A stretch of DNA of 64,000 nucleotides, taken from NCBI RefSeq assembly GCF_002778315.1, contig NZ_NESA01000001.1, forward strand, positions 62,001-126,000, read 5' to 3'. This document shows positions 2,646 to 63,915 of this stretch, piece after piece. The translations under genes and the position numbers were made by a program. The stretch's first letter is position 1. Each line of letters opens with the position of its first letter. This stretch comes from Limnohabitans sp. JirII-31 (GTDB lineage: Bacteria; Pseudomonadota; Gammaproteobacteria; Burkholderiales; Burkholderiaceae_C). The notes under the pieces are model-generated. The model ran no database searches. It worked only from the letters and a program-made list of their open reading frames with translations, and had not been told where the DNA came from.

Positions 2646-4913
2646 TCAGGCTTCGCGGTCCACGCCCGACACCACCCGTTGCGCCTGCATGACAGACGGC
2701 AAGCGTCGCAAGCTGCGCAGCACGGTGTCTAAGTGTTCGGTGTCGCGCACCGAAATCACAAAGCGCAAATCGGTGGCTTCTTGGCCACTCACCTCATCGG
2801 CCATGTTCACCAGCGTGATGTCGGCCTCCGCATTGGCAATGGCAGCTGCCACCCGTGCCAACACACCCTTGCCATTGCCGACGGTCACCACAATGGCGAC
2901 TTCAAAATTGCGCGTGGGCTCTTCAGCCCATTCCACGGCAATGAATCGCTCACTGTCTTTGTGTTTGAGCCGCTGCCCCACGCCACATTCGTGGGTGTGC
3001 ACCACCAGGCCTTCACCACGACCCAAATAACCCAAAATCGCATCGCCTGGAATGGGGCGACAGCAGGGTGCATATTGCACCGAAGCATTCTCACTGCCAT
3101 CCACCACCACGCCACCTTGCGACACATTTTCATGTGCGGTGAAACGCTCACGGCTCATGAGCAGGGCGTCAGGTTTTTGTCCGGCTTCGGACAGCAGCGT
3201 GGCCAAACGCTTGGCCACAATGCTGGCCACGCGTTTGCCCAGGCCGATATCGACCAACAACTCATCTTGAGTTTTGCTGCCCGTAAAGCGCAGTAACTTG
3301 TCCCACATCACTTGGTGTGAGGCATCCACCGCAGGCATTTGCTCAATGCCTTCAGCACGCAGCGCTTGCGCGAGCAATTTTTGCCCCAGTTGCTGTGACT
3401 CCACCTGTGCCATGGTTTTGAGGTGATGGCGAATTTTCGAGCGTGCTCTGCCTGTGCGAACAAAGCCTAACCAGGCTGGGTTAGGCGCAGCCACGGTAGA
3501 GGTGATGACTTCCACCACGTCGCCGTTGCGCAGTTCTGTACGAAGCGGGACTTGCGCACCGTTGACCTTGGCGGCCATGGTGCGATCGCCCACGTCGCTG
3601 TGCACCGCATAGGCAAAGTCCACCACCGTCGCACCACGCGGCATGGCCATGATGCGGCTCTTGGGCGTGAACACATACACCGCATCGGGGAACAGATCAA
3701 CCTTGACGTGGTCCCAAAATTCGGTGGCATCGCGCGTCTCATCTTGGATGTCGAGCAAGGACTGCAACCACTTGTTGCCCAAGTTGCTGCTACTGTCTTG
3801 TGCGGAACCATTGGCCTTGTAGAGCCAATGTGCGGCCACGCCAGACTCTGCCACCAAATGCATGCCCTCGGTGCGCATTTGAAATTCCACATTCAAACCA
3901 GAAGGCCCCACCAAGGTGGTGTGCAGTGATTGGTAGCCATTGAGCTTGGCAATCGCGATGTGGTCTTTGAATTTACCTGGAACCGGTTTGTACAACTGGT
4001 GCAACACGCCCAACGCGGTGTAGCAGTCGGTCACATCGGGCAGGATGAGTCGAAAGCCATAAATGTCGGTGACTTGAGCAAAACTCAGATTCTTCTCGCT
4101 CATCTTTTTGTAGATGGAGTAGAGCGTTTTCTCGCGTCCAGAAATGCGCACTTTCAAACCCGCTTTGGCAAACGCGGCTTCGACTTCTTGCTGCACACGC
4201 TGCATCAGGTCGCGGCGGCGATGGCGGGCTTTTTGCACCGCTTTGCTGAGCACTTTGTGGCGCCATGGCAGCAGATGTTTGAATGCCAGCTCTTGCAGTT
4301 CGCGGTAGGTTTGGTTCAAGCCTAAGCGGTGGGCAATGGGGGCGTAGATCTCCAGTGTTTCACTTGAAATACGACCCCACTTGCTGCGCGGCATATCGCC
4401 CATGGTGCGCATGTTGTGGCTGCGGTCGGCCAGTTTGACCAATATCACGCGGACATCGCGGGCCATCGCCAACAACATCTTGCGAAACGACTCCGCTTGG
4501 TTCTCTTCGCGTGTATTGAATTCGAGCTTTTCAAGCTTGGTCAATCCGTCCACCAAGTCGGCCACCTGGATGCCGAAGCGCTCGATCAAATCGGTCTTGG
4601 TGATGCCGCAGTCTTCCATCGCGTCATGCAACAACGCAGCGGACAAGGCTTGCGCATCCAGCTTCCACTCGGCGCATTGCGCCGCTACCGCGATGGGGTG
4701 GGTGATGTAGGGCTCGCCGCTGTTGCGCAATTGGCCGAGGTGGGCTTCGTCGGCATAGCGGTAAGCACGGCGGACTTGATCCAGACCTTCGGCGTTGAGA
4801 TAGCCCAGTTTTTCAGTCAGCGCAGCAAAGCTTGCAGCCGCTGCATTGGCGGCTGCTTTGTGGTTGCCCGCAGGGCTTGTCACCACAGGGGAGAAAGGGT
4901 TGGCCGAGCTCAT
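2646..4913 (-). CDS. spoT: Bifunctional (p)ppGpp synthetase/hydrolase
   Basis: A 755-residue long RSH enzyme that makes and degrades the alarmone (p)ppGpp. The HD hydrolase domain is intact, with H96-D97 and E100-D101 forming the HDxxED motif. The synthetase domain follows (DIYGFR and the NGYQSLHT segment at about 290-350), then TGS (about 400-460), a helical/Cys-rich region and a C-terminal ACT domain. Both activities should be present, as usual for betaproteobacterial SpoT. The ATG at 4913 is preferred; a GTG three codons upstream is possible. It lies downstream of rpoZ with a hairpin between them. Confidence 0.95.
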   Translation of the reverse strand: MSSANPFSPVVTSPAGNHKAAANAAAASFAALTEKLGYLNAEGLDQVRRAYRYADEAHLGQLRNSGEPYITHPIAVAAQCAEWKLDAQALSAALLHDAMEDCGITKTDLIERFGIQVADLVDGLTKLEKLEFNTREENQAESFRKMLLAMARDVRVILVKLADRSHNMRTMGDMPRSKWGRISSETLEIYAPIAHRLGLNQTYRELQELAFKHLLPWRHKVLSKAVQKARHRRRDLMQRVQQEVEAAFAKAGLKVRISGREKTLYSIYKKMSEKNLSFAQVTDIYGFRLILPDVTDCYTALGVLHQLYKPVPGKFKDHIAIAKLNGYQSLHTTLVGPSGLNVEFQMRTEGMHLVAESGVAAHWLYKANGSAQDSSSNLGNKWLQSLLDIQDETRDATEFWDHVKVDLFPDAVYVFTPKSRIMAMPRGATVVDFAYAVHSDVGDRTMAAKVNGAQVPLRTELRNGDVVEVITSTVAAPNPAWLGFVRTGRARSKIRHHLKTMAQVESQQLGQKLLAQALRAEGIEQMPAVDASHQVMWDKLLRFTGSKTQDELLVDIGLGKRVASIVAKRLATLLSEAGQKPDALLMSRERFTAHENVSQGGVVVDGSENASVQYAPCCRPIPGDAILGYLGRGEGLVVHTHECGVGQRLKHKDSERFIAVEWAEEPTRNFEVAIVVTVGNGKGVLARVAAAIANAEADITLVNMADEVSGQEATDLRFVISVRDTEHLDTVLRSLRRLPSVMQAQRVVSGVDREA

Positions 4914-61478: not shown

Positions 61479-61531
61479 GCAGCAAATGCTAGGCATCTGG
61501 GGGAGTGCGGCGCGTTGCCGCCACTCGAAAA

Positions 61532-61981
61532 TTATTTGCGAACTTCGTCGACCAAGCTCTTGAAATCGTCGATGTCTTCAAAGCTGCGGTAGACGCTGGC
61601 AAAGCGGATGTAAGCCACTTTGTCGAGTTTTTTCAGCTCGCGCATGACCAGTTCACCAATGCGGGTGGAGGGCACTTCGCGCGCGCCGAGGCTGAGCAGT
61701 TTTTCTTCGATGCGTTCAATCGCGTTGTCGACTTGTTCCGTGCTGACCGGGCGTTTGCGCAGGGCCAGACTCATGGAGTCGAGCAGTTTGTGGCGTTGGT
61801 AGTCGATGCGTCGCCCGTCTTTTTTGACGATGTTGGGAAAGCTCACATCGATGCGCTCGTAGGTGGTGTAGCGCTTGTCGCAGGCACCGCATTGGCGGCG
61901 ACGGCGGATGGAGTCGCCGTCTTCAGACATGCGGGTCTCCACCACTTGGGTTTCAAGGTGACCGCAGAAGGGGCATTTCAT
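61532..61981 (-). CDS. nrdR: Transcriptional repressor NrdR
   Basis: A 149-residue NrdR that represses ribonucleotide reductase genes when (d)ATP binds. The zinc ribbon has four cysteines (M-K-C-P-F-C and Q-C-G-A-C), followed by R-R-R-Q-C and the ATP-cone domain (D-G-R-R-I-D-Y and on). It usually follows glyA in betaproteobacteria, and here too glyA is the upstream neighbour, but 558 bp of repeats separate them. Confidence 0.95.
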
Positions 61982-62040
61982 GGGGTGTTGTCTCGCTTTG
62001 GTTTGTTGGCGATTGTGCTTGTGGTTTTGTCTTTGCCCTT

Positions 62041-62106
62041 GCCTTTGCCTTTGCCTTTGCCTTTGCCTTTGCCTTTGCCTTTGCCTTTGCCTTTGCCTTT
62101 GCCTTT
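62041..62106. repeat. Hexanucleotide microsatellite (GCCTTT)11
   Basis: Eleven perfect tandem GCCTTT units, with two imperfect units before them (62029-62040). On the nrdR-sense strand it reads (AAAGGC)n, purine-rich with Shine-Dalgarno-like AAGG cores. The nearest edge is 60 bp upstream of the nrdR start codon. All frames through it are open (Lys-Gly, Lys-Ala or Arg-Gln on one strand), which explains several spurious open frames. Slipped-strand changes in copy number are expected. Confidence 0.95.
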
Positions 62107-62116
62107 GCTGTGCTCG

Positions 62117-62191
62117 CTGGGGGTATGGGTGGGGGCCGCTTCTTCATACTGTGTACAGAAAATCATCAGCGGCCCCCACCCATACCCCCAG
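62117..62191 (+). repeat. Hairpin element, copy 1 (24-nt arms, 27-nt loop)
   Basis: Arms at 62117-62140 and 62168-62191 are perfectly complementary over 24 nt and G-rich on the left side (start CTGGGGGTATGGG). The 27-nt loop is 62141-62167 with core CATACTGTGTACAGAAAA. The same loop, reversed and complemented and without any mismatch, forms the loop of copy 2, although the stems differ in sequence. There is no T-tract, so it is not a standard terminator. Confidence 0.9.
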
Positions 62192-62361
62192 TCTGCGGCT
62201 GGCTTGGCTGGCGCTCGCCGTGTTCATGCGCTGCAATGCACGATCTGAGCTGGCTTTTTTGTTGGCACGCAAATCACTTGTAACTTTCGTGGCTTCTGGA
62301 TTCTGGCGTCATGCTTGTGATTCAGCATGGGTTCCCGAAAGAACTTGCTCTCAACCCAACC

Positions 62362-62436
62362 GCAGGGGTGATGGGTGCGGCGGGCGATGATTTTCTGTAC
62401 ACAGTATGAAGAGCCCGCCGTACCCATCGCCCCTGC
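62362..62436 (-). repeat. Hairpin element, copy 2, inverted
   Basis: Arms at 62362-62385 and 62413-62436 pair over 24 nt with 22 Watson-Crick and two G-T pairs. The loop at 62386-62412 is the exact reverse complement of the copy 1 loop. Arm length, loop length and total length (75 nt) equal those of copy 1. The stems share only a loose GGGG...ATGGGT pattern with copy 1. The two copies are separated by 170 bp. Confidence 0.9.
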
Positions 62437-62539
62437 CGTTTCCGGCGCGAACGCTTCACAAGAACCATCACGCCAACAGAACCAGCAAACCCCAAAAGCA
62501 GTGACCGGCGCGAAATCTTCACGCCAGAAACACCCCAAC

Positions 62540-63784
62540 TCAGCGGTAGACCGGAAAGCGGCTGGTCAAAGCATGCACCTTGGCGCGCACGGCTGCGATG
62601 TTGGCTTCGTCGTGCGGGTTGTCCAACACGTCGGCAATCAAATTGGCGGTCATGCGCGCTTCTTCGTCCTTGAAACCACGCGTCGTCATCGCTGGGGTGC
62701 CAATGCGCACGCCGCTGGTGACGAAAGGTTTTTCGGGGTCGTTGGGGATGGCGTTCTTGTTGATCGTCATGTGGGCGGCGCCCAAGGCGGCTTCGGCTTC
62801 TTTGCCAGTGATCTTTTTCGAGCGCAGGTCCACCAACATCACGTGGCTTTGTGTGCCGCCGCTGACGATGCGCAGGCCGCGTTGGGTCAGCGTTTCGGCC
62901 ACGATGCGGGCGTTGGTAATGACTTGTTGTTGGTAAGCCTTGAACTCAGGCGCCAGGGCTTCTTTGAACGCCACGGCTTTGGCCGCGATGACGTGCATCA
63001 GCGGGCCGCCTTGCAGGCCAGGGAAGATGGCGCTGTTGATGGCTTTTTCGTGCTCGGCTTTCATCAAGATGATGCCGCCACGGGGGCCGCGCAGGCTCTT
63101 GTGGGTGGTGGAGGTCACCACATCGGCGTGAGGCACGGGGTTGGGGTAGACGCCTGCGGCGATCAAGCCGGCGTAGTGGGCCATGTCGACCAAGAAGATG
63201 GCACCCACGTCTTTGGCCACTTTGGCAAACCGTGCAAAGTCAATGTGCAGGCTGTAGGCCGAGGCACCGGCGATGATGAGTTTGGGCTTGCTCTCGTGGG
63301 CCTTTTTCTCCATCGCGTCGTAGTCGATTTCTTCTTTCTCGTTCAGACCGTAGGACACCACGTTGAACCACTTGCCACTCATGTTGAGCGCCATGCCGTG
63401 GGTCAGGTGACCGCCTTCGGCCAGGCTCATGCCCATGATGGTGTCGCCGGGCTTCAAGAAAGCCAAGAACACGGCTTCGTTGGCCGATGCGCCGCAATGC
63501 GGCTGCACGTTGGCCGCGTCGGCGCCAAAGATTTGTTTGATGCGGTCGATCGCCAGTTGCTCAGCCACGTCCACGTGTTCGCAACCGCCGTAATAGCGCT
63601 TGCCGGGGTAGCCTTCGGCGTATTTGTTGGTGAGCTGCGAGCCTTGGGCTTGCATGACGGCGGGGGAGGCGTAGTTTTCGCTGGCGATCAGCTCGATGTG
63701 GTGCTCTTGGCGCGCGTTTTCAGCCTGGATGGCGGCCCACAGTTCGGGGTCGGTCTGTTCGATCAAGATGTTGCGGTGGTACAT
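62540..63784 (-). CDS. glyA: Serine hydroxymethyltransferase
   Basis: A 414-residue SHMT interconverting serine and glycine with tetrahydrofolate. The N-terminal E-L-I-A-S-E-N-Y motif, [23 protein letters not shown] and the PLP lysine in [14 protein letters not shown] are all present. The ATG at 63784 gives the standard start; the frame open upstream is leader sequence. A ZTP-riboswitch-like leader precedes it, consistent with one-carbon control. Confidence 0.97.
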
Positions 63785-63833
63785 GCTGGCAGTCCTAGTA
63801 GAGGTGGTCCCGGCGTGCCGATACATCGGCACA

Positions 63834-63915
63834 GGGCTGCCCAGGCGAACGGCAAAACACCTCAAGGGTTGAGGCTGCGCGCTTCCCAGTGGTCAAAACT
63901 CCACGTCAGCGGTGC
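63834..63915 (-). promoter_or_regulatory. Probable ZMP/ZTP (pfl) riboswitch upstream of glyA
   Basis: Read on the minus strand, the leader shows CTGAC, a GTGG-N8-CCAC hairpin, then TGGGAAGCG, and after a variable loop the conserved 3' segment CGCCTGGGCA (63847-63838). This order matches the pfl/ZTP aptamer, known upstream of glyA, purH and folD. A GTGCCGAT/ATCGGCAC hairpin (63815-63832) between aptamer and start codon could be the expression platform. Recognised from memory of the consensus, not by a covariance model. Confidence 0.62.

Follow-up and report, generated by a model that had tools for sequence, protein, structure and literature searches.

Two hairpins that lie in inverted orientation between nrdR and a putative glyA in Limnohabitans sp. 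JirII-31 share a loop and differ in the sequence of their self-complementary stems. The question that this locus raises is what keeps a loop fixed and its stem paired while the stem itself is rewritten, and whether RNA or DNA is the molecule concerned. We approached it computationally, comparing the 64,000-nucleotide stretch that contains the locus (hereafter the window) with related genomes, after a sequence-only reading had drawn attention to the two hairpins.

Two inverted hairpins in the nrdR-glyA spacer

The spacer is bounded on one side by nrdR (61532-61981, minus strand), assigned from its ORF and a protein search, and on the other by putative glyA (62540-63783, minus strand), which owes its name to the sequence-only reading and has a start codon placed by eye within an ORF at 62540-63865. 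Copy 1 (62117-62191) consists of two 24-nt arms, to which no strand is assigned (left, 62117-62140; right, 62168-62191), pairing at 24/24 positions around a conserved 27-nt loop (62141-62167) whose GA form (GATGATTTT...TATGAAGA) reads on the minus strand. The arms of copy 2 (62362-62436), likewise of 24 nt and without assigned strand, lie at 62362-62385 and 62413-62436 and are joined by 22 pairs and two G·T on the plus strand; the GA form of the conserved 27-nt loop between them (62386-62412) is on the plus strand. Loops 1 and 2 are exact reverse complements of each other, as a search confirmed for the inner 25 nt. The architecture first reported, two 75-nt inverted hairpins with 24-bp stems and a common 27-nt loop, was thus confirmed. 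Pairing in copy 2 is slightly longer than first described, reaching out to 62358 on the left and 62440 on the right, and counted with this longer hairpin the spacer between the copies measures 166 nt (62192-62357). The 27-nt loop is itself structured: it contains an apical mini-stem, CTG-TGTA-CAG at 62149-62158 in hairpin 1; one relative has CGG-GGTA-CCG at this place, and others have CTGG-NGTA-CCAG. Immediately outside hairpin 1, the flank (62107-62116, GCTGTGCTCG) is, by eye, a variant of the flank seen at other loci (GCTGGGCTCG).

When up to three mismatches were allowed, the 25-nt core occurred twice in the window, compared with none in 100 shuffles, and twice in the whole source genome, both times at the window locus. 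The 89-nt stretches around the hairpins had folding energies 7.9 to 11.4 standard deviations below those of dinucleotide shuffles, whichever strand was folded. Chance therefore does not explain the window hairpins. In one genome of the same genus both hairpins are present in the same glyA-nrdR spacer, with different stems and a different mini-stem. We compared 61 nrdR-upstream spacers, that of the window and those of 60 other regions, two of which end early at contig ends; at the threshold used, 16 have at least one hairpin and 13 have both.

Other repeats are present in the same spacer. A microsatellite of TTTGCC and TTTGCC-like hexamers (62030-62108) adjoins hairpin 1, and other short repeats occur there in relatives. 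A 25-nt direct repeat with 80% likeness between its copies (62435-62459 and 62498-62522) is formed by the outer flank of hairpin 2. At one locus (L024) a deletion of the spacer runs from around the microsatellite into hairpin 2 and leaves one arm.

Anatomy of the unit

We define the GA strand as the strand carrying GAYGATTT ... YATGARGA, and call its complement the TC form. On the GA strand the unit runs from a 5' arm through GAYGATTT, an apical stem-loop and YATGARGA to a 3' arm, with loops of 22-34 nt and arms that pair nearly perfectly. The conserved part is the internal loop GAYGATTT/YATGARGA, which lies between a variable apical hairpin (CTGG-TACN-CCAG, CTG-CTCG-CAG, GTG-CTCG-CAC, CAG-CTCG-CTG and others) and a variable stem of 17-37 bp. 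The first four internal positions, in a tally of 188 unique candidates, were G·A in 152, A·G in 166, C-G in 168 or T-A in 17, and G·A in 183, respectively; pairs 5 and 6 and part of pair 7 are forced by the filter, so that pairs 1-4 are the informative ones. Where the fourth position was not G·A it was A·C, in 5/5 cases, which amounts to a paired change of a non-standard pair. The internal loop can form G·A/A·G, Y-R and G·A/A·G pairs. On the GA strand, the 5' arm is G/T-rich and the 3' arm C/A-rich (G-C 997 vs C-G 404 and T-A 403 vs A-T 201 in 86 hairpins, those failing the loop test being left out), a composition that would hinder misfolding within an arm.

A dispersed, lineage-restricted family

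We built two covariance models, R1 from 21 copies and the broader R2 from 42 copies of the same genus. R1 matched 37/84 same-genus genomes at E<=1 and 35/84 at E<=0.001, with up to 25 copies per genome; the 37/84 count takes in some unconfirmed matches, since some weak matches show no long hairpin. Six genomes that were inspected closely had 25, 21, 19, 12, 7 and 3 R1 matches. At 7 of 30 inspected loci the long hairpin was missing; these include both matches in G461, the sole match in G473 and L152. The last of these is a third match in the window's own genome, in which, by eye, the core is intact and the right arm truncated. In one genome of the set (G080), all six long hairpins with loops of 10-40 nt in 400 kb belonged to the family, and allowing 4-nt loops added two others that were terminator-like.

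Searches with R2, whose counts are lower bounds because stricter filters apply in large searches, gave matches in at least 60 of 399 genomes and at least 35 of 141 genera of the bacterial family. Samples of the order (399 genomes) and the class (369), which double as a negative control for the model, yielded at least three and at least two matching genomes, respectively, all from the same family. The design of a fixed loop with variable, self-complementary stems, proposed from two copies, accordingly holds far beyond the window: both models recover it across genomes of the genus and the family, and the conditions under which the sequence-only reading would have failed do not hold, since the motif has other sites and the arms there are complementary although their sequences vary from copy to copy. 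No match was obtained in viral contigs, searched with one exact pattern at a time, or in plasmids and phages, searched with a 34-nt loop; such queries are narrow, since the stems vary. The hairpins constitute a real, dispersed, multi-copy and lineage-restricted family that is old at many sites and partly located inside genes. In genome G476 (C3, 282-1101), six model matches cluster within about 0.8 kb, a possible tandem amplification.

Inverted pairs, host genes and empty sites

Copies are found singly or as inverted pairs, mostly in intergenic DNA. In a first set, all 26 pairs had the order TC form then GA form; in a wider set this held for 56/59, the remaining 3/59 being GA then GA, with spacers of 29-174 nt. 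Partner loops were identical in 14/59 pairs. It had been suggested that the two loops of one transcript could pair and so link the glyA and nrdR mRNAs; such pairing is not supported, since with so few identical loops it could not be general. Two stem types and similar outer flanks are common to many pairs at different loci, an indication that each pair spread as one unit. These shared features also disfavour the proposal that an insertion mechanism copies flanking DNA into an inverted repeat around the core, and favour dispersal of whole pairs followed by paired divergence. By a naive and rough classing of neighbouring ORFs, which was wrong for the window itself, where antisense ORFs were chosen, 54 of 60 loci could be assigned: 25 convergent, 25 tandem and 4 divergent.

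Ten loci in the same genus have a hairpin in frame inside a gene, and the TC strand is the coding strand in 10/10. The host genes encode UvrA, an HrpA-like protein and a formate-dehydrogenase-alpha-like protein; HrpA and formate dehydrogenase scored below whole-protein cut-offs because partial genes were supplied. In another genus, hairpins occur inside the leucyl-tRNA synthetase gene (leuS) and inside giant UvrA ORFs with several pairs. The empty sites that had been suggested as a check are present in relatives. Among alleles that matched the alignment anchors, uvrA was filled in 3, empty in 10 and partial in 2 of 15, and the formate-dehydrogenase-like gene was filled in 4, empty in 5 and intermediate in 2 of 11; flank divergence and partial deletions blur the exact boundaries in these alignments. 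In other genera, pairs of hairpins separated by about 1.9 kb were considered as possible arrays around a mobile gene; this idea was rejected, as they proved to be pairs in the linkers of giant UvrA-like ORFs. The giant UvrA ORFs are about 1900-2340 aa long (L318, 1845-8864, and ORFs in genomes of the genus), and that in L318 has three hairpin pairs in its linkers.

Diverging stems keep their pairing on one strand

In the R2 alignment 99.5% of 546 cells were paired, and the covariation score was 0.887, compared with 0.214 for shuffled alignments and at most 0.168 for slid structures. Since this alignment was chosen for paired arms, the score describes rather than proves covariation. We therefore relied on orthologous sites in four related genomes, using 68 pairwise comparisons that are not independent and in which the selection of hits matters little. 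The 16-nt motif differed at 15/1088 positions (1.4%), the stems at 344/2992 (11.5%) and the flanks, coding sequence included, at 2408/13464 (17.9%). Both members of a pair had changed between Watson-Crick pairs at 91 positions. One-sided changes from a Watson-Crick pair, read on the GA strand, led to G·T in 99 cases, to A·C in 1 and to other combinations in 27.

A transition in a stem that gives G·T on one strand gives A·C on the other, so the two outcomes distinguish the strands. At the 84 varying stem positions of orthologous sites, G·T was seen on the GA strand in 48 and A·C in 1, an excess of 48:1 (binomial p = 2e-13, linkage ignored). The G·T pairs were linked to G-C in 29 cases and to A-T in 23; as they neighbour both, cytosine deamination alone is not the cause. 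Although older G·T pairs could in part predate insertion by inheritance, the varying positions indicate that the bias went on after insertion. The stems thus diverge and yet stay paired, the protection of pairing being confined to the GA strand.

Tolerance of G·U and covariation are typical of RNA, and the GA strand might act as a transcribed hairpin with a role in 3'-end formation, stability or processing. In keeping with such a role, many copies lie within some tens of nucleotides of predicted ORF ends, and 25/54 loci are between convergent ORFs by the naive calls. Selection on RNA would make the favoured strand follow transcription, and copies inside genes allow this to be examined. We kept 196 hairpins with 16/18 positions Watson-Crick, G·T or A·C, a filter that treats G·T and A·C alike and was applied because the unfiltered set (210 unique; 272 G·T, 53 A·C and 112 other) held chance matches. 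With the GA strand serving as the template of a gene, 21 hairpins had 31 G·T and 1 A·C; with it as the coding strand, 10 had 17 and 0; and the 165 intergenic hairpins had 188 and 7. Varying positions within genes, in sets some of which mix related sites, gave 14 G·T and 1 A·C of 35 for the template strand, and 8 and 0 of 15 for the coding strand. The same bias is thus seen where the GA strand is the template of hrpA, uvrA, leuS or the formate-dehydrogenase-like gene and the mRNA in consequence has the TC form. Folding of the mRNA therefore does not account for the bias, although antisense RNA may still be involved. The order TC to GA in 56/59 pairs moreover places one GA form on each strand.

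The region of the window copy has one terminator-like site, against 1.0 expected, and none with a T-run beyond chance; no promoter-like site was found at the copy; and Rfam (window 61500-63000) returned no family at gathering score, the models below it being of microRNA type or other kinds with E up to 1. No T-run follows the GA form in the 26 inverted pairs examined, so that the GC-rich hairpin with a following T-run of intrinsic terminators is not what these copies present. We consider an RNA element unlikely. Of the earlier suggestion that selection acts on a structured RNA or single-stranded DNA, selection for a folded strand is supported, with the strand evidence favouring single-stranded DNA over mRNA.

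A process without function might also keep arms alike: template switching between the arms during replication would homogenise them, in which case the covariation would be mutational in origin. Template switching is reported to homogenise arms and to invert spacers (PMC8604942). At L149, the arms are the same as at L160 and L186 and the loop is inverted, at what is apparently an orthologous site, as arm-mediated inversion would give. Such a mechanism may contribute to keeping the arms alike. However, it predicts neither the 48:1 excess on one strand nor the conservation of the internal loop relative to the stems, and as a full account it is very unlikely.

Comparison with known repeat families

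The family is REP-like in the wide sense, consisting of dispersed palindromes that are mainly extragenic and form inverted dimers. REP, BIME and REPIN elements are similarly described, in the parts of the literature that deal with their organization, as dispersed palindromes near gene ends that form inverted dimers and are presumed to be non-autonomous (PMC3733652, PMC3116915). Those accounts also mention compensatory stem changes and GT pairs (PMC3733652, PMC3116915), and copies inside tRNA synthetase genes and inside genes for repair proteins, uvrA among them (PMC3733652). In contrast, most REP stems are given there as spanning 6-13 bp and are marked by a GTAG or CGTC end tag (PMC3733652), whereas here they are 17-37 bp and conservation lies in an internal loop. 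By eye, the flanks of 26 pairs have no common GTAG foot, and a CGTC end tag is likewise missing from them. CGTC REPs are characterized by the CGTC end tag, an 8-9 bp stem starting with AT and a loop of 4-5 nt (as summarized in PMC3733652); in the present family CGTC on the TC strand sits inside the 22-34 nt loop, beside the long stem. On these features the family belongs to neither the GTAG nor the CGTC group of REPs. REPINs, in the portion of PMC3116915 that describes them, have conserved ends and a compensated variable middle, the reverse of a conserved middle with a variable outer stem.

The sequence-only reading knew of no named family with this design, and our literature search, which covered openly licensed papers, found no description of a hairpin with a fixed loop and variable stems. 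That opinion has to be qualified in that REP and REPIN elements share the ecology of the family and the betaproteobacterial repeat element BRE overlaps with it in size and hosts. Rickettsia palindromic elements are palindromes inserted in frame in coding genes, and integron attC sites are variable in sequence. Some of the former have been classed as CGTC REPs; they belong to another lineage, and the relevant passages of PMC3733652 describe them without a fixed loop and variable stems. The latter resemble the present family in that a folded single strand is recognized on one strand through unpaired bases (PMC8266576, in its account of attC).

Identity with BRE deserves separate consideration. 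BRE is 75-91 bp long in Bordetella, GC-rich, present in up to 29 copies in Comamonadaceae genomes and sometimes located inside genes, and it agrees with our family in size (about 75-91 bp), GC-richness, hosts and occasional intragenic sites, a comparison made by description only (PMC3110155). However, the portions of that report defining the element contain no hairpin, fixed loop or variable stems, and base BRE on more than 70% sequence similarity, a level hardly to be expected from variable stems (PMC3110155). The order-wide sample, in which Bordetella membership is not established, had no match outside the family. We regard the identity as decidedly unlikely.

Several other hairpins of comparable layout were seen. 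Beside uvrA, a second family with a fixed 25-nt loop, GACATTCTGAGCGCAGCGAAGAGGA, occurs at nine placements (L151 at 253, L162, L187, L200, L204, L205 and L218); it shares GAC...GGA at the loop edges with the main family, and in L151 it has one copy per orientation, in TC-GA order. A third design near uvrA (L202, 310-400 and 461-539; L216, 459-537) consists of two hairpins in inverted orientation that have the 19-nt loop AATAAACGAGCGAAGCGAG in common but differ in their stems of 30-36 bp. The plan of a fixed loop with variable stems may thus recur with unrelated loops. In G428, a genome with no R1 match, L201 has hairpins of 32-35 bp with CTCAT...AAAATCG loops (2727-2831 and 2903-3006), perhaps a distant branch of the family.

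Discussion

With moderate confidence, we place the window hairpins, as one inverted pair, in a dispersed family that is REP-like and non-autonomous and whose GA strand would be recognized by a protein as folded single-stranded DNA. Such a protein would bind at times when replication, repair or strand transfer leaves the GA strand single-stranded and folded; it would read the internal loop and need the stem but not the stem sequence. As with REP elements, recognition of this kind would once have driven the spread of the units, and it would still restrain the copies. Folded single-stranded hairpins recognized strand-specifically through loop or mismatch bases are known from REP and TnpA-REP, IS200/IS605 and integron attC sites (PMC8266576, in the parts on these systems). 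A selfish element alone leaves unexplained why each old copy keeps its loop and pairing. More tentatively, the hairpins may represent a class of structure-specific single-stranded DNA site not previously recognized. The conserved internal loop, with its two tandem G·A pairs, would be presented by a long stem whose sequence is free, and a lineage-specific protein would read it on one DNA strand. On that proposal every copy, even in essential genes, would be selected for folding of the GA strand, and single-stranded DNA rather than RNA would be what is preserved.

No mobilizing or recognizing enzyme was found, the Y1 (RAYT) genes of the 84 same-genus genomes being the candidates surveyed. A Y1_Tnp gene of RAYT type was present in 65/84, comprising 33/37 genomes with hairpins and 32/47 without (p = 0.034, kinship ignored), and no RAYT was detected in one genome with 17 hairpin copies. 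The gene is single-copy (L248-L267) and, in many of 20 regions, flanked by its own AATTAATTGGG palindrome. The hairpin copies do not flank it in the manner of GTAG REPs: a family copy occurred in 3/20 RAYT regions of 4-9 kb (G080, G399 and G423), about 4 kb from the gene. With a weak association and a different flanking palindrome, RAYT was set aside as the mobilizing enzyme and kept as a weak candidate.

The family is REP-like in the wide sense, and its strand rule is unusual and well supported. Most repeats are recognized by conserved sequence; here the stems are rewritten pair by pair through G·T intermediates, on one strand, while the motif stays fixed. By comparing the same site in related species, one can ask directly of evolution whether single-stranded folding of DNA takes place in living cells, and copies inside genes separate selection on DNA from selection on RNA. 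Discovery of an enzyme would reveal a new structure-specific binder of single-stranded DNA; if none exists, the strand rule would point to a strand-specific mutational process, which would be equally unexpected.
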